NCBI GenBank assembly: GCA_001897855.1
Contig: MKUO01000018.1
Coordinates: forward strand, 351,463-415,462
DNA length: 64,000 nt
From: Bacteroidetes bacterium 43-93
GTDB taxonomy: Bacteria > Bacteroidota > Bacteroidia > Chitinophagales > Chitinophagaceae
Direction of reading: 5' to 3'
The translations under genes and the position numbers were made by a program. Positions within the stretch are counted from its first letter, which is position 1. Each line of letters opens with the position of its first letter. The notes beneath the pieces are model-generated. The model was not told the origin of the DNA. It made no database searches and worked only from the letters and a program-made list of their open reading frames with translations. Positions 37,110 to 42,590 of the stretch are shown here, piece after piece.

Positions 37110-37262
37110 ATGAAGAATTTGATTTTAGTTTTCTGCCTAGCTGCAGCGACGATGGTTTCCTGCGGCCCACCAAGACATTTACCACCGGGGCCTCCGCCAC
37201 CACCGCCGGGTGCTCCTGTACCACCAGCACCGCCAACACCACCCCCACCACCGGGACGTTAA
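37110..37262 (+). CDS. Small proline-rich lipoprotein
   Basis: 50 residues, easily missed. MKNLILVFCLAAATMVSC is a lipoprotein signal with lipobox MVSC. The mature part is almost only Pro, Gly and Ala (GPPRHLPPGPPPPPPG, then VPPAPPTPPPPPGR). A good AAAGGA lies upstream and a strong terminator starts 2 bases after the stop, so this is very probably a real gene. Its role is unknown; a short polyproline rod anchored in a membrane is the visible structure. It may be driven with or by the upstream sigma factor. Confidence 0.75.
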   Translation: MKNLILVFCLAAATMVSCGPPRHLPPGPPPPPPGAPVPPAPPTPPPPPGR

Positions 37263-37263
37263 T

Positions 37264-37299
37264 AAAAATACCCCTTGCAAAACAAGGGGTATTTTTATT
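37264..37299 (+). terminator. Terminator after the proline-rich lipoprotein
   Basis: A perfect 14-bp stem AAAAATACCCCTTG (37264-37277) / CAAGGGGTATTTTT (37283-37296), loop CAAAA, then ATTT. Confidence 0.9.
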
Positions 37300-37366
37300 T
37301 GTCGCAAAACGCCCTTTTATAGCCGTGAACGACACCCGATCTTGCTAACCATCCGATGTAGGTTTG
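37300..37366 (+). promoter_or_regulatory. Regulon box A with promoter (DinB/SnoaL/TPR unit)
   Basis: The box runs from TGTCGC (37300) to CCCTTTTATAGCCGT (ending 37326). After exactly 32 bases comes TAGGTTTG (37359-37366), a TAnnTTTG -7 element. No TTTG occupies the -33 position, so the promoter looks activator-dependent. The DinB start is 16 bases further on. Confidence 0.75.
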
Positions 37367-37382
37367 CATATACAAGCTATAG

Positions 37383-37889
37383 ATGATGAACAAAAATGAA
37401 CTCATAGCACAGCTGGAAGTTATTACCGAAGAGCTATTAGAGATAGTGGGGCGATTTACCGAAGAACAGTTAAACACCATTACACCAGCCAGCGGCTGGA
37501 CAGCCGGTCAAATAGCAGAACATATTGCTAAAAGTGCCGCAGGCGAGGTATTGTATGGCAATACTACAATTACAAACCGGCCACCCGGCGAAAAGCTACC
37601 TGCAATTCGTGAACTATTCCTGAACTACGACCTGAAATTTAATGCCGCAGAGCAATTATTGCCGGGAGAAGGGCCGTATAAAAAGGAGCAGGTATTGTCC
37701 ATGATCGACAATACTTTCCGGGAGCTGAAAGGTGCAGCATGGGGGCTATACCTGGATGCCACATGCACCGACAGGGAAGTTGGCATGTTTGGCCAGCTTA
37801 CCCGCTACGAATGGATAGGCCTGATAACGGTGCATACGCAAAGGCATATACAACAGCTGATGAACGTCTATGCTTCGCTAAATGCTTAG
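37383..37889 (+). CDS. DinB family protein
   Basis: 168 residues. The N-terminal helix ELIAQLEVITEELLEIVGRF is followed by PASGWTAGQIAEHIAKSAAG with the first His, and the C-terminal VHTQRHIQQLMNV carries the His pair of the metal site. It heads a rightward unit with a SnoaL-like protein and a TPR protein, driven by the box-A promoter. Its own function is unknown; DinB proteins often act in detoxification or thiol transfer. Confidence 0.85.
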   Translation: MMNKNELIAQLEVITEELLEIVGRFTEEQLNTITPASGWTAGQIAEHIAKSAAGEVLYGNTTITNRPPGEKLPAIRELFLNYDLKFNAAEQLLPGEGPYKKEQVLSMIDNTFRELKGAAWGLYLDATCTDREVGMFGQLTRYEWIGLITVHTQRHIQQLMNVYASLNA

Positions 37890-37937
37890 GTGCACCTGAA
37901 AGCCGGGGGCAGTGATGTATTTCCTTATATTGCAACA

Positions 37938-38306
37938 ATGTCACCAAGGGAAATTGTAAAGCGATGGGTAGATGCTTTTAACCGTGCGGATGTGGAAGCA
38001 TTATCCAACCTGTATGCAGAAGAAGCTATTAATCACCAAATGCCCAATGAGCCTATCATAGGCAAAGCGGCTATTAAACAAATGTTTGCCGGTGAATTTG
38101 CCGCCGCGCCGGAAATGCATTGCATACCTGTGCAAATAATTGCAGAGGGCGATTGGGCCGTGCTGGAATGGAAAGATCCTAAGCACTTTAACGGCTGCGG
38201 ATTTTTTGAGATAAAGAACGGTCTGATTCAAACGCAACGCGGGTATTGGGATAAACTGAAATTCTTTAAGCTATATAACATACAACCCACCGACGATGTT
38301 GTTTGA
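37938..38306 (+). CDS. SnoaL-like / NTF2-fold protein
   Basis: 122 residues from ATG 37938 (MSPREIVKRWVDAFNRADVEAL). The pattern of N-terminal helices, YAEEAINHQMPNEPIIGKAAIKQMF and a beta-sheet with CIPVQIIAEGDWAVLEW fits SnoaL_2. Such folds serve as small enzymes or binding proteins. The upstream GTG at 37890 is not favoured. The stop overlaps the TPR gene by 11 bases, so they are coupled. Confidence 0.82.
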   Translation: MSPREIVKRWVDAFNRADVEALSNLYAEEAINHQMPNEPIIGKAAIKQMFAGEFAAAPEMHCIPVQIIAEGDWAVLEWKDPKHFNGCGFFEIKNGLIQTQRGYWDKLKFFKLYNIQPTDDVV

Positions 38307-38730
38307 TGGTGATAACCCGGTAAATAAGCTCTGTGCAGAAGGCATGGAGATGGAAGGCAAGGGTGATCTTGCTGCATCTCTGCAATTATTTACGAGGGCG
38401 TGGGATATGGCCGGCAATGATGCAGAAAAGTTTATAGCTGCACATTACCTTGCACGCAGACAGGCTGATACGGAAGGCAAACTGTACTGGGATGCCATTG
38501 CATTGGCACATGCACAAAAAGTACCAGACACCTCGGTTAAAGGTGCCATGCCATCGTTACACCTGAATATAGGCAAATGCTATGAAGACCTGGGCAAGTA
38601 TGATCTTGCAACAGAGCACTATACACAGGCACTGGCCTATGCAGATAAACTTGGGAATGACGGTTATGGAAATATGATACGTAAGGGAATAAAGAAGGGA
38701 CTGGAAAGGATAAAAGATGCTACTCTTTAG
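38296..38730 (+). CDS. Tetratricopeptide-repeat protein
   Basis: 144 residues. Two TPR-like helix pairs are visible (DLAASLQLFTRAWDMA and LHLNIGKCYEDLGKYDLATEHYTQALAYA), with a helical segment KFIAAHYLARRQAD between them. Homologues are sometimes mislabelled rRNA adenine methyltransferase; no SAM motif is present. It ends the box-A unit and overlaps the convergent gene at 38720 by 11 bases. It likely works as a protein-binding scaffold. Confidence 0.75.
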   Translation: MLFDGDNPVNKLCAEGMEMEGKGDLAASLQLFTRAWDMAGNDAEKFIAAHYLARRQADTEGKLYWDAIALAHAQKVPDTSVKGAMPSLHLNIGKCYEDLGKYDLATEHYTQALAYADKLGNDGYGNMIRKGIKKGLERIKDATL

Positions 38731-38947
38731 TGATCACAAAATACTTACCTTTTGATTTGCTCAGCTTGGTTTTGACCTTTTCGATAGCGATAGCTGCCTG
38801 CTCGTCTTCTTTTACAGGCTCGTAGGTTACCATTTCCTGCGCACCGCCGAAGTCTTCATCTTCGTGGTTGAACTTAACTACAAAATGGCTGTAACCATTG
38901 TCCAGGAGTTCCTGGCAAATGCTTGTTGAAAGTGTTTTCAGCTTCAT
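38720..38947 (-). CDS. Small hypothetical protein
   Basis: 75 residues, not recognised. An N-terminal helix (MKLKTLSTSICQELLDNGYSHF) is followed by a strand VVKFNHEDEDFG, an acidic middle and a basic end SKSKGKYFVITKE. There is no signal or membrane segment. It converges with the TPR gene with an 11-base overlap. Composition is native-like, so I take it as a real gene. Confidence 0.55.
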   Translation of the reverse strand: MKLKTLSTSICQELLDNGYSHFVVKFNHEDEDFGGAQEMVTYEPVKEDEQAAIAIEKVKTKLSKSKGKYFVITKE

Positions 38948-39134
38948 GTTGGCTTTTTTAACGTGAACGATTCAATATGCCCTTAAAAGCCTTGTCGGGA
39001 CTACTATGTGGCTACATAGCTGCATGTGCGCATGTTACTTTACGCAATTAAAATTTTCATCCGACAATGAAATAAAATAAAGTACCCTTACCTTCTGAAG
39101 GTACAAACATTACTGCGGTTTTCCTAATATTATT

Positions 39135-39172
39135 TAATAATTAAGCCTGTGTTTACACAGGCTTAATTATTA
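39135..39172 (-). terminator. Terminator of the GlxA-type regulator gene
   Basis: A perfect 17-bp stem with core AAGCCTGTG / CACAGGCTT (39135-39151 with 39156-39172), loop TTTA. A/T-rich arms allow use in either direction, but only the leftward gene ends here. Confidence 0.8.
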
Positions 39173-39194
39173 TACTCCTCTATGTATCAGTTTG

Positions 39195-40175
39195 TTAGTT
39201 CTGTGCGTACAGCCTGTTATATTTATTGCGATAGTCGAGCGGGCTAAGGCCGGTGATGCGTTTGAATGTAGAACGGAAAGCTTTAGGGTCAGTATAGCCA
39301 ACATTGTACATCACTTCCGTAACATTATCGCGCGATGATTCGAGGCTTGCTTTTGCCGCTTCTACCTTTACACGCTGCATATATTCTGTAACTGTATTGT
39401 CTGTAGCCTTCTTGAACCTGCGCTCGAAATTGCGCCTGCCTATAGCAAACATATTCGTGAGCTGATCTACGGTAATACGCTCCTGGTAGTTCTTTTCTAT
39501 ATACTCCTGCGCTTTGCGTATCGGCTCATCTTCATGATCTTTCTGTCCCTGGAATATCATAAACGAAGCCTGGCTATCGCGCTCTATTTCTATGGCAAAT
39601 ACCTTGGCACACATCACCGCCATATCATGACCGGCATATTTTTCTACCAGGTGTAGTATCAGGTTCAGGTAAGAAAATGCACCACCACTTGAGTACAGGC
39701 CTTTTTCGAACGTAATGATCTTTTCTGTCACCAGGTCTACCTCGGGGAACATCTTACGAAACTCGTTAGCAGCTACCCAGTGTGTGGCACACTTCATACC
39801 ATTGAGCAAGCCTGTAGATGCAAGCAGAAATGCCCCAAGGCAAAGACTGGCCACCTCTGCACCACCCTTGTATTGCTTAATGATCCAGGGAATGAACTCA
39901 TTATTCTCTTCGATAACCTTTTGCAGATCGCCATCAATGGCGGGAATAATAATAAGATTTGTCTTCTTTACTTCACTAAGCAACTTATTGGCATTAACGG
40001 TAAACAAGCCACCGCTTACCCTGGTCTCTTCTTGCAGGCCTACCAGTTCAATCTTAAAAAGCGGCGCGCCACCTTTCATTTTCACAAACTGGTTTACCTG
40101 TGCAAACAATTGCCTGGAGCCTTCGAGGCTCGCCAGTATAGCGCCTTTGGGAATGAGAATTGAAATATGTACCAT
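39195..40175 (-). CDS. GlxA-type AraC regulator with DJ-1/PfpI domain
   Basis: 326 residues from ATG 40175 (MVHISILIPKGA). The N-terminal DJ-1/PfpI-like domain has IIIPAIDG and EVASLCLGAFLLASTGLLNG with the nucleophile-elbow Cys, then CATHWVAANEFRKMFPEVDL. The C-terminal AraC domain has VDQLTNMFAIGRRNFERRFKKATD and VTEVMYNVGYTDPKAFRSTFKRITG. GlxA-type proteins are activators of metabolic or stress genes. It is divergent from box B, and two further box-driven units lie on either side, so it is my main candidate for the regulator of the box. Confidence 0.9.
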   Translation of the reverse strand: MVHISILIPKGAILASLEGSRQLFAQVNQFVKMKGGAPLFKIELVGLQEETRVSGGLFTVNANKLLSEVKKTNLIIIPAIDGDLQKVIEENNEFIPWIIKQYKGGAEVASLCLGAFLLASTGLLNGMKCATHWVAANEFRKMFPEVDLVTEKIITFEKGLYSSGGAFSYLNLILHLVEKYAGHDMAVMCAKVFAIEIERDSQASFMIFQGQKDHEDEPIRKAQEYIEKNYQERITVDQLTNMFAIGRRNFERRFKKATDNTVTEYMQRVKVEAAKASLESSRDNVTEVMYNVGYTDPKAFRSTFKRITGLSPLDYRNKYNRLYAQN

Positions 40176-40180
40176 AATGT

Positions 40181-40212
40181 CAAATGTAAATAATGTGCTT
40201 GTCGCAACCAAC
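40181..40212 (-). promoter_or_regulatory. Candidate promoter of the GlxA-type gene, overlapping box B
   Basis: On the minus strand GTTG (40212-40209), a 20-base spacer and TACATTTG (40188-40181), 5 bases before ATG 40175. The -33 part lies inside box B, which suggests autoregulation; the transcript would be almost leaderless. Confidence 0.45.
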
Positions 40213-40267
40213 CCCTTTTATTGCCGTAAATGCCCCTGTTGTTTGCTGCCGACCGGTTATAGCTTTG
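40200..40267 (+). promoter_or_regulatory. Regulon box B with promoter (GyrI-like/PhnB unit)
   Basis: The box runs from TGTCGC (40200) to CCCCTTTTATTGCCGT (ending 40227), one base longer than A and C. After exactly 32 bases comes TAGCTTTG (40260-40267). The gene at 40285 starts 17 bases on. The box lies between the divergent GlxA-type regulator and this unit. Confidence 0.75.
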
Positions 40268-40284
40268 TGGTTAGAAATCTATAA

Positions 40285-40701
40285 GTGACGCATCAGCTAC
40301 ATATACAACAAGATATACAACTCATGTATGTACAGGCAACATCTTTTCCGCAGGGAATTATGGATGCTTTCAATAAGTTAAAAAATTTGCTGCCGGATGC
40401 TGATAACAGGATTTACTATGGCGTTTCCTACCCGGTAAACGGAATGATCGTATATAAGGCAGCTACGGAAGAACTACCCGGTGAAGAAGCACAACAATAT
40501 GGATGCGAACTGTTTATAGCCAGGGCAGGTAATTACATAGCTGAATTGCTACATGACTGGATGCAAGACGAAACAGCTATTGGTAAGACCTTTCAACTGC
40601 TGTTGGCCCAGCCGGGTATAGACCCCAAAGGAGCCTGCATCGAAAAATATATCGGCAAAGATGTGCTGTGTATGGTAAGGCTTGCAGACCTAAAAGATTG
40701 A
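40285..40701 (+). CDS. Hypothetical protein, possibly GyrI-like
   Basis: 138 residues with a GTG start at 40285; ATG at 40324 is the alternative. Strands such as IQLMYVQATSFP, IYYGVSYPVNGMIVYKAATEE and YGCELFIARAGNYIAELL suggest a SOUL/GyrI-type effector-binding domain without a DNA-binding part. That comparison is by pattern, so I keep it tentative. It is the first gene of the box-B unit and overlaps the leader of the PhnB-like gene. Confidence 0.5.
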   Translation: MTHQLHIQQDIQLMYVQATSFPQGIMDAFNKLKNLLPDADNRIYYGVSYPVNGMIVYKAATEELPGEEAQQYGCELFIARAGNYIAELLHDWMQDETAIGKTFQLLLAQPGIDPKGACIEKYIGKDVLCMVRLADLKD

Positions 40702-40724
40702 TAACCCTTTTAAAAGACAAGACG

Positions 40725-41150
40725 ATGGCGATAGTGAACCCCTATTTGAACTTTAACGGAAATACAGAAGAAGCATTTGACTTTTACAGATCGGTATTTG
40801 GCCACGACTATTGCAATATCATCCGCTATAAAGACCTGCCGGATGGTATGCCTGACCCCTGCGGCGATAAAGAAAGCATCATGCATATATCGCTGCCGGT
40901 AAGCAAAGAGACCATCCTTATGGGCAGTGACCGGCCATCATCGCTGGGGCCTGTACAAAACGGCAACAACTTCTTTATATCCATACAGGGAGAAAGCGAG
41001 GCAGAAACAAAAAGAATATTCAGGGCGCTGTCTGAAGGCGGAACCATCGTAACCCCGCTGGAGCGCGCATTCTGGGGCGCCATCTTCGGCATGCTCACCG
41101 ATAAGTTCGGCGTACAATGGATGATCAATTATCAACAGCATCTTTTTTAA
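40725..41150 (+). CDS. VOC family protein, PhnB-like
   Basis: 141 residues from ATG 40725; the frame back to 40668 overlaps the preceding gene. MAIVNPYLNFNGNTEEAFDFYRSVFG is the PhnB/3-dmu-9_3-mt start, and FWGAIFGMLTDKFGVQWMINY is the closing motif. These are glyoxalase-fold proteins of unclear reaction, often labelled 3-demethylubiquinone methyltransferase wrongly. A paralogue follows after 22 bases. Confidence 0.87.
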   Translation: MAIVNPYLNFNGNTEEAFDFYRSVFGHDYCNIIRYKDLPDGMPDPCGDKESIMHISLPVSKETILMGSDRPSSLGPVQNGNNFFISIQGESEAETKRIFRALSEGGTIVTPLERAFWGAIFGMLTDKFGVQWMINYQQHLF

Positions 41151-41172
41151 TCAATCATAAAACCAAAAAACA

Positions 41173-41592
41173 ATGACAACAGTAAATGCTTATGTAAACT
41201 ACAACGGGCGCTGCCAGGAAGCGATGAACTTTTACAAAGAGAACCTTGGCGGCGAGCTGAACATTATGCTTGTAGGCGATACCCCATTAAAAGAAATGTG
41301 CCCACCAGCAATGGCAAATCAGGTAGCACACTCCATGCTCGTAAAAGGCAGCTTTGTATTGATGGGTACGGATATGACACCGCCGGAAGGCTATACGAAA
41401 GGAAATGATATAGCATTATCTGTAAACTGCAGCAGCGAAGAAGAGATCAACGATTTTTATAACAAGCTATCCGCAGGCGGAAAGATCATAGACCCAATGA
41501 AACAGCAGTTCTGGGGTGCATTGTTTGGTGTTGTGGCTGACAAATTTGGCATCGTATGGATGCTTAACTTCGATAAGAACATGCAACAATAG
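41173..41592 (+). CDS. VOC family protein, PhnB-like (second copy)
   Basis: 139 residues. VNAYVNYNGRCQEAMNFYKENLGG opens it and FWGALFGVVADKFGIVWMLNF closes it, the same frame of motifs as the upstream copy but clearly diverged, so an old duplication. It sits at the end of the box-B unit. A short DUF1905-like remnant follows after 3 bases. Confidence 0.88.
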   Translation: MTTVNAYVNYNGRCQEAMNFYKENLGGELNIMLVGDTPLKEMCPPAMANQVAHSMLVKGSFVLMGTDMTPPEGYTKGNDIALSVNCSSEEEINDFYNKLSAGGKIIDPMKQQFWGALFGVVADKFGIVWMLNFDKNMQQ

Positions 41593-41595
41593 TAT

Positions 41596-41673
41596 ATGAA
41601 ATTCAGGACCACCATAAAGCAGGCAGGAAAGAATACCACCGGCATTGAAGTGCCGGTGGATATTGTAAATTAA
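41596..41673 (+). pseudogene. Truncated DUF1905-like gene remnant
   Basis: A 25-codon frame right after the PhnB stop reads MKFRTTIKQAGKNTTGIEVP and ends VDIVN-stop. This matches the opening of DUF1905/YdeI-associated proteins (F-x-T-T-I ... GK-x-T-G-I-x-V-P), which normally run to 90 residues or more. The stop is 1 base before box C, so the rest of the gene seems to have been lost where the box-C promoter now lies. It may still be translated as a short peptide. Confidence 0.55.
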
Positions 41674-41674
41674 A

Positions 41675-41741
41675 TGTCGCAAACAACCCTTTTATAGCCG
41701 TAGCAGCACCTCACAGACGCAAAATACCCGCAGTATCTTTG
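41675..41741 (+). promoter_or_regulatory. Regulon box C with promoter (DoxX tandem unit)
   Basis: The box runs from TGTCGC (41675) to CCCTTTTATAGCCGT (ending 41701). After exactly 32 bases comes TATCTTTG (41734-41741). The first DoxX gene starts 40 bases on. No TTTG is seen at -33. Confidence 0.75.
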
Positions 41742-41781: not shown

Positions 41782-42168
41782 ATGAAAACAAAGAGAATAA
41801 AGATCATTTACTGGATAGCAACCATCGTTTTTGCCTTACTGATTCTTATGGATGGCATTGGTGGCGTCACCAGGGCAGAAGCGGGGCAGGAAGTGCTAAG
41901 ACATCTTGGCTACCCGATGTATGCACTCACTATATTTGGCATAGCAAAGTTGCTTGCCGCTGTAGCCATTTTGCAGGACAGGTTTACCACGATCAAAGAG
42001 TGGGCGTACGCAGGGCTTGCGTTCAACTTTATTGGTGCGTTTGCATCGCGCGCTTTTGCCGGAGACAATGGTATGCTGCTGGTATTCCCGCTGATCATAT
42101 TGGGCATCATGTTCCTGGTGTACTATGCGTGGAAGCGTTATGAGCGGTATAAACCCGCAAACATATAA
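41782..42168 (+). CDS. DoxX family membrane protein (tandem copy 1)
   Basis: 128 residues with four hydrophobic segments. The first is IIYWIATIVFALLILMDGIGG, and the loop motif ILQDRFTTIKEWAYAGLAFNFIGA is shared with the next gene, which therefore is a tandem paralogue. DoxX_2-like proteins of this size occur in stress-related clusters. It is led by box C. Confidence 0.83.
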   Translation: MKTKRIKIIYWIATIVFALLILMDGIGGVTRAEAGQEVLRHLGYPMYALTIFGIAKLLAAVAILQDRFTTIKEWAYAGLAFNFIGAFASRAFAGDNGMLLVFPLIILGIMFLVYYAWKRYERYKPANI

Positions 42169-42203: not shown

Positions 42204-42590
42204 ATGAAAAAGACAAAAATTGCTTACTGGATCATCACCATTTTGTTTGCAGGGTTTATGCTGTTCTCTGCCATACCTGATGCATTGAACACACAAGATG
42301 CACAGGCTTTCATGAATGGTAAACTAGGCTACCCCAATTATATCAGTCCATTCCTGGGCATAGCTAAGATATTGGGTGCTATAGCTATACTGATACCGGG
42401 TTTCCCGCGCATAAAAGAATGGGCTTATGCCGGATTGATATTCGACCTGCTGGGCGCTACCTATTCTATTGTGTCAAGCGGAGATAATGGCAGCGGACTG
42501 GCTTTTATGACCGTTATCATTGCAGTTGGCTTTACCTCTTATGCCTTGTACCATAAGGTAAACAAGCCGGTTTTATCATTAGCTGTATAA
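42204..42590 (+). CDS. DoxX family membrane protein (tandem copy 2)
   Basis: 128 residues, the same length as copy 1, with IAYWIITILFAGFMLFSAIPD, LGYPNYISPFLGIAKILGA and FPRIKEWAYAGLIFDLLGA. The gap of 35 bases without a box places it in the same transcript as copy 1. Sequence has drifted, so the two may have separate tasks. Confidence 0.85.
   Translation: MKKTKIAYWIITILFAGFMLFSAIPDALNTQDAQAFMNGKLGYPNYISPFLGIAKILGAIAILIPGFPRIKEWAYAGLIFDLLGATYSIVSSGDNGSGLAFMTVIIAVGFTSYALYHKVNKPVLSLAV

Follow-up and report, generated by a model that had tools for sequence, protein, structure and literature searches.

A tandem box held 32 bases from the -7 element as the putative operator of a GlxA-type regulator in Bacteroidota

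We analyzed a 64,000-nucleotide stretch of Bacteroidetes bacterium 43-93, a member of the Chitinophagaceae (GCA_001897855.1, contig MKUO01000018.1, positions 351,463 to 415,462 of the forward strand; hereafter the window, with positions counted from its first letter). Three rightward gene units, A, B and C, are each preceded here by a copy of the same sequence box, and a GlxA-type regulator gene runs divergently from unit B. An earlier reading of this DNA from its letters alone (the sequence-only reading) had placed the boxes at 37300-37326 (27 bp), 40200-40227 (28 bp) and 41675-41701 (27 bp), each ending 32 bases before a TAnnTTTG element (starting at 37359, 40260 and 41734); the positions are as it gave them and the gap is exact at all three. 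We argue that the box is probably the operator of the GlxA-type regulator, which would activate the units from it. The features are as follows.

37300..37337, + strand: box A; distal half TGTCGCAAAACGCCC, proximal half AGCCGT..CACCC (CACCC at 37333-37337)
37359..37366, + strand: -7 element TAGGTTTG of unit A, 32 bases past box A
37383..37889, + strand: target A1, DinB_2 family (Pfam 5.5e-11)
37935..38306, + strand: target A2, SnoaL_2 family (Pfam 7.9e-18)
38296..38730, + strand: target A3, TPR protein (TPR_1 2e-7)
39195..40175, - strand: GlxA-type regulator; N-terminal DJ-1/PfpI domain, C-terminal AraC-type double helix-turn-helix (HTH)
40181..40188, - strand: the regulator's own -7 TACATTTG, 11 bases from box B
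40200..40236, + strand: box B (28-bp form), lying between unit B and the divergent regulator; GCCCC (40232-40236) closes its proximal half
40209..40211, - strand: TTG, likely -33 of the regulator promoter, N20 before its -7 and inside box B
40260..40267, + strand: -7 element TAGCTTTG of unit B, 32 bases past box B
40285..40701, + strand: target B1, GyrI-like effector-binding protein (the earlier reader's name); ATG also at 40324
40725..41150, + strand: target B2, VOC/PhnB-like (Pfam 1.9e-10)
41173..41592, + strand: target B3, VOC/PhnB-like (Pfam 2.9e-10)
41675..41711, + strand: box C; proximal half AGCCGT..CACC (CACC at 41707-41710)
41734..41741, + strand: -7 element TATCTTTG of unit C, 32 bases past box C
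41782..42168, + strand: target C1, DoxX_2 (Pfam 1.1e-15)
42204..42590, + strand: target C2, DoxX_2 (Pfam 1.3e-18)

Target B1 has no match in Pfam or NCBIfam. The -7 elements of all three units fit the TAnnTTTG of the Bacteroidota housekeeping promoter, a consensus placed at -12 to -5 in the available text of PMC9723704.

Pattern expectations, Markov controls and the coincidence of spacing rule out chance or a compositional artefact as the source of the boxes. Box-pattern matches numbered 2 against 0.01 expected, and those of a second pattern 3 against 0.10; the + strand of the window carries 34 TAnnTTTG elements, so agreement of three at one offset (range 0-60) is expected at ~1e-8. A search of the whole genome (3.99 Mb, 27 contigs) for the box with its 32-base spacing returned exactly A, B and C at zero mismatches. 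At three mismatches there were 2 further matches against 4 for the reversed control, which is chance level, and we therefore left two matches out of the counts, L007 and L006 (C4; a MATE-like gene, so named by eye, lies downstream of it). A longer pattern gave 4 matches in the same genome (A and C among them, the other two with one mismatch each) against 1 for the reversed control; the extra sites are L083, before a VOC/PhnB-like protein, and L084, before a RibD_C-like and then a glycosyltransferase-like gene (by eye). The sequence-only reading had proposed a small local regulon. The three exact sites are indeed local, but the two further good sites lie on other contigs, so the regulon is small without being only local, and we rejected a purely local one.

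We then turned to the relatives, among which the GlxA-type protein query has a match at E<=1e-60 in 185 of 294 family genomes (77 of 101 genera). The compared set consists of the 70 best-scoring loci with upstream DNA (the 30 closest and the next 40, the window's own included); several share one genome as paralogues, orthologues being separated from paralogues by score alone, and some counts and genus labels are from hand-copied tables. The long box adjoins the GlxA-type (DJ-1/PfpI plus AraC) gene in 50 of the 70 loci (32 of 35 genera), and the boxes of these 50 score above all 700 Markov-resampled controls. The 99.9% control threshold was reached by 0/70 on the opposite strand and by 0/70 in a stretch starting 700 bases further upstream. 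That the box stays beside this gene while the target genes change supports the earlier choice of the GlxA-type protein as the best candidate to bind it. Across these sequences, comparison places the box beside the regulator, and its geometry and its link to that gene are seen in the same way.

The box is a tandem head-to-tail repeat, TGTCGCAAnCAACCC(C)-N5-TTGCCGTAnTTnCACCC, with a period of 21-22 bp, and the profile of the 46 boxes with the commonest spacing resolves into TGTCGCAATCAACCCC and TTGCCGTATTTACACCCC in direct repeat, joined by a 5-base linker. Box B has this commonest spacing (28 bp, TGTCGC-N16-TGCCGT), and A and C are of the 27-bp form (TGTCGC-N15-AGCCGT). The extent of about 27 bp first given to the box is too short: the end set at GCCGT leaves out a conserved CACCC that follows ~5 bases later (displaced one base at A, reading CCCC at B), and over both repeats the box measures ~38 bp. 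TTTTAT was rejected as a full part of the recognition site: it lies in the linker and is only partly conserved (in relatives the first T 80%, the A 74%, the bases between 41-63%). L036 is a two-box locus: ~500 bases from the regulator-adjacent box stands another complete one (core at 949, - strand), again with its perfect -7 at offset 32. Just ahead of box A in the window lie a small proline-rich, lipoprotein-like reading frame (37113-37262) and a terminator-like hairpin with a T-rich stretch (37264-37299), which ends directly before the first base of the box.

Wherever a perfect TAnnTTTG occurs 0-89 bases past the 50 boxes, it stands at offset 32 (37 of 37; 27 genera), and the bases between box and -7 carry little information, which argues that the spacing is kept for itself. 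A scan with a 27-bp pattern free of the -7 gave 19 sites in the 294 genomes against 1 reversed-control match (one, L266, is the same place as L026; two, L275 and L281, are in the own genome). Ten of these sites have a perfect TAnnTTTG at 32 and seven have one mismatch there, while the remaining two comprise L274, seemingly shifted one base, and L278, with two mismatches; no perfect TAnnTTTG was found at any other offset within 0-89 at the 19 sites. The larger pattern scans, those with the longer and the 28-bp patterns and those of 84,980 species and of a phylum sample, had the spacing built in and are uninformative on it. At L237 and L238 (G328 and G389; same phylum, other family), TATAATAG stands at the usual place instead of TAnnTTTG, so that the position is kept with a core promoter sigma-70-like in look.

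If TAnnTTTG occupies -12 to -5, the second repeat ends near -34, at the place of the -33 element, and a TTG at N19-21 occurs in 0 of the 37 promoters with a perfect -7 at 32. The -33 had been described as missing from all three units; A, B and C do lack a TTG at N19-21, but B has one at N18. Such a site, abutting or overlapping the -33 region at a fixed distance from a promoter without a -33 element, has the layout of a class II-like promoter, and the rigid geometry from box to -7 suggests activation. The sequence-only reading had taken the box for an activator site, which the retention of the box-to-TAnnTTTG spacing in relatives supports.

On the other side of the box, 26 of the box loci have a perfect regulator-directed TAnnTTTG within 60 bases, and in 24 of them it lies 11 bases away. 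In 21 of these 24 regulator promoters the -7 is preceded by TTG-N20; this TTG is the reverse complement of the CAA in the first half-site. Box B had been said to overlap the likely regulator promoter, and it does, for the TTG-N20 -33 sits inside the box. Binding there would be expected to block the regulator's own promoter, and the regulator likely represses itself. The regulator -7 ends 5 bases before the ATG (40175-40188), as in many relatives; with the -7 so near the ATG, the regulator mRNA would be leaderless or nearly so.

Taken together, we estimate a probability of about 0.83 that the GlxA-type regulator uses the box as its operator, with class II-like activation of the targets and probable self-repression; we infer binding, activation and self-repression from sequence comparison. 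A regulator dimer would sit on the two head-to-tail half-sites, with one double-HTH domain per half. At the second half-site, about -51 to -34, the bound regulator would stand in for the missing -33 and recruit RNA polymerase, and its replacing the -33 contact would account for the constant 32-base gap. A dimer bound at site B would also cover the regulator's -33 (TTG-N20-TAnnTTTG), repressing its own gene while activating unit B. Alternatively, the protein could bind the box and repress the target promoters, leaving them on induction, as might be expected from a proximal half-site that overlaps the -33 region and a box lying over the promoter of the regulator itself. Repression would demand neither one spacing nor one orientation, yet all 37 perfect -7 elements are at 32 and no box scores on the other strand; moreover, freed target promoters would need a -33, and 0 of the 37 have a TTG at N19-21. 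We consider repression of the targets very unlikely.

The link to the regulator was followed in wider sets. A scan of 84,980 species for an exact match to box, spacing and -7 gave 106 matches, 70 of which have a divergent GlxA-type gene start within 400 bases; their records include Chitinophaga and Chitinophagaceae, and also Gramella, Gelidibacter, Pseudarcicella, Roseivirga and Ignavibacteria. A 28-bp pattern (<=3 mismatches) occurs in 147 of the 185 genomes with the regulator (361 sites vs 28 reversed-control matches) and in 6 of the 109 without it (7 sites vs 13 control matches), a co-occurrence with p 8e-39. In the phylum sample, 19 of 296 genomes match at <=2 mismatches, the own genome included. 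Three foreign matches, L008, L009 and L011, read by eye, have TAGGTTTG, CACCTTTG and TATCTTTG in the 32 slot; L010, inside an open frame, was taken as chance, and L187, from a metagenome-assembled genome (MAG) of Hyphomicrobiales, is probably a chance match. L145 (JANLJF010000038.1, labelled as an Azovibrio restrictus MAG) has a box and a regulator of Bacteroidota type, with the box start and the identity of the regulator to the window protein both equal to those of L116; mis-binning of this contig is the probable explanation.

A different protein, such as an AraC-type regulator encoded elsewhere, might instead read the box, with the GlxA-type gene a mere member of the regulon. Among the 19 -7-free sites, which were chosen regardless of the regulator, 16 have no GlxA-type gene in their ~3-kb locus, and the own genome has at least one other AraC-type HTH match. 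Against this, the box tracks the GlxA-type gene through 32 genera while the target families change, regulator and pattern co-occur, a paralogous subfamily goes with an altered box, and the start of the half-site is that of known relatives; we regard another reader of the box as very unlikely. That the box is an extended core promoter for an alternative sigma factor, which would account for the fixed spacing to the -7 and the absent -33, is scarcely credible, given that ~38 bp of two repeats far exceeds a sigma contact, that 9 of the 50 loci retain the box next to the regulator with the rightward -7 gone, and that the -7 is an ordinary TAnnTTTG.

Several observations weigh against the proposed explanation. 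A scoring box is missing from 20 of the 70 regulator loci, 6 among the 30 closest and 14 among the next 40. Four of these 20 (L030, L035, L074 and L078) nevertheless carry TAnnTTTG at 32, preceded by a weaker match. Thirteen of the 50 box loci have no perfect TAnnTTTG at 32 (4 have the element with one mismatch, 9 lack it), and their boxes may therefore act on the regulator gene alone. A TTG at N17 or N18 occurs in 4 of the 37 promoters, box B (N18) included, and the unit B promoter may not wholly lack a -33; box A has the one-base shift of CACCC noted above. The 28-bp pattern also catches sites of paralogues (sister regulators), so the genome counts are not specific to one regulator. Finally, the related CdhR of Pseudomonas aeruginosa binds further upstream and is called a class I activator (PMC5806209); it reportedly raises its own expression, self-repression being proposed only without inducer.

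The regulator itself matches the Pfam models DJ-1_PfpI (1.1e-9) and HTH_18 (5.3e-19), both above gathering scores, and so has the domains of the GATR / GlxA-type AraC proteins. Its best two NCBIfam matches, FtrA (157.8 bits, cut-off 425) and GbdR (103.8 bits, cut-off 480), fall far below the curated cut-offs, and we rejected equivalog identity with either. With 34 first-look candidates scored in the own genome, the regulator itself and one protein whose match is confined to the HTH passed E<=1e-10; no second protein with both domains was found at this threshold. Cys112 is invariant in this subfamily (50/50) and in a second subfamily described below (16/16), and His132 is found in 50/50 and 15/16, respectively. 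The DJ-1 domain with these two residues is a likely sensor of a small molecule. The nature of the signal is speculative; our guess is a reactive molecule, with Cys112 and His132 conserved as in a DJ-1-type reactive site.

Downstream of the boxes, 54 frames were picked automatically (the longest within ~350 bases), of which 43 were scanned and 11, including L059 and L071 (one mismatch in the -7), left out. The 43 comprise 37 with a scoring box and perfect -7, four with a perfect -7 and a sub-threshold box (the same L030, L035, L074 and L078), and L019 and L057 with one mismatch. Glyoxalase/VOC (14), 3-dmu-9_3-mt (12, overlapping VOC) and DinB_2 (4) lead the families; MFS_1, RibD_C and AHSA1 occur twice each and DoxX_2 and SnoaL_2 once each. 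Taken with the products of units A to C (DinB, SnoaL, GyrI-like, VOC and DoxX) and with those at L083 and L084, these targets look like genes of small-molecule detoxification.

AraC at araBAD/araC binds tandem half-sites with a 21-bp period, the proximal one at -35, and represses its own divergent promoter. That layout resembles the box here, with a different sensor domain. AdpA of Streptomyces reads a site, TGGCSNGWWY, that is not known to be a fixed tandem repeat. It has the same DJ-1/PfpI plus AraC architecture as our regulator and is described as a global regulator, unlike the small regulon here, in the available parts of PMC8994273 (structure PDB 3w6v). Its two DNA-reading HTH1 arginines, named in that paper and placed on the 3w6v alignment by their spacing, fall at R248 and R252, which are invariant in both subfamilies (50/50 and 16/16).

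The sequence-only reading had called the box unknown. For Bacteroidota this holds in the open-licence literature, where we found no paper on the box, judged by titles and abstract starts; TGTCGC-type direct repeats are known, though, for relatives in Pseudomonas. As far as the available text of the sources goes, the GATR subfamily there (CdhR, GbdR, SouR and ArgR; PMC5806209, PMC10963909, PMC4997734) has direct-repeat half-sites, a site between regulator and target, and self-regulation, which is likely here too; the other features are as here. CdhR and GbdR have the same domain order, and the CdhR gene is likewise divergent from its target operon. The footprint of CdhR (GATase-1/AraC) covers 34 bp and includes two GGTCGC half-sites with a 15-bp spacer, a period of 21 bp compared with 21-22 bp here; the site is described as very similar to those of GbdR, SouR and ArgR (PMC5806209). 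ArgR reads tandem copies of TGTCGCN6GNAA separated by 5 bp (PMC10963909). In our box, (G/T)GTCGC half-sites at a ~21-bp period are present with the first repeat exact, and the second is GCCGT in the window and GNCGT in relatives, not GTCGC. The half-site continues AACCC/CACCC instead of GNAA, and with ACCC/CACC at that part we rejected an identity with the Pseudomonas ARG box. The site also differs from that of CdhR in abutting the -33 position at one fixed distance, and from the Pseudomonas systems in its TAnnTTTG promoters, in the regulator's -33 inside the site and in its VOC/DoxX/DinB/SnoaL targets, as opposed to amine and arginine catabolism. With half-site start, direction and period in common, the box appears to be a Bacteroidota variant of that kind of site; by comparison, what is different is the second element, the rigid link to the -7 and the regulon.

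To our knowledge, binding sites are known for few transcription factors of soil or aquatic Bacteroidota. Here a single motif at a single spacing points to regulator, target promoters and likely mode of action together, and could allow many orphan VOC/DoxX/DinB/SnoaL/AHSA1 operons to be assigned to a DJ-1-domain sensor. The arrangement also shows how an activator may replace the -33 element in a phylum with promoters unlike those of E. coli.

A second box class, TGTCC/T...AGTCT/C...CACC, lies beside a separate paralogous GlxA-type subfamily in 16 of 22 distinct loci, chosen by eye among the matches listed (24 loci, of which L260/L094 and L261/L100 overlap; a divergent regulator frame in 18, or 16 distinct, and none in 6). 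The pattern for this class already held the spacing, which is thus not independent evidence there. Where read by eye, the neighbours at L094, L100, L101 and L242-L261 are SRPBCC-like or DinB-like. Comparing the 16 second-subfamily with the 50 first-subfamily proteins, we found 9 HTH positions at which the residues of the two sets hardly overlap, including E251, K255 and S/T302 of the recognition helices (placed by sequence alignment and AraC-family structure); since 36 positions over the whole protein differ as strongly and the contrast is a single evolutionary one, the HTH differences are only suggestive of specificity. On balance we lean slightly towards a cis-code of Bacteroidota GlxA-type regulators, in which each subfamily would have its own tandem box, always head-to-tail, always at the 32-base distance to the -7 and always containing the -33 of the regulator promoter. 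Specificity would shift through changes at few positions of the recognition helices, for which K255 to I/V, S/T302 to E and E251 to D are the candidates. If true, regulator-target pairs of detoxification genes would be readable from genomes across the phylum. A third class, ending in CACA instead of CACC, stands beside VOC-like genes by eye (L091, L111 and others), and L091 has yet another GlxA-type gene.

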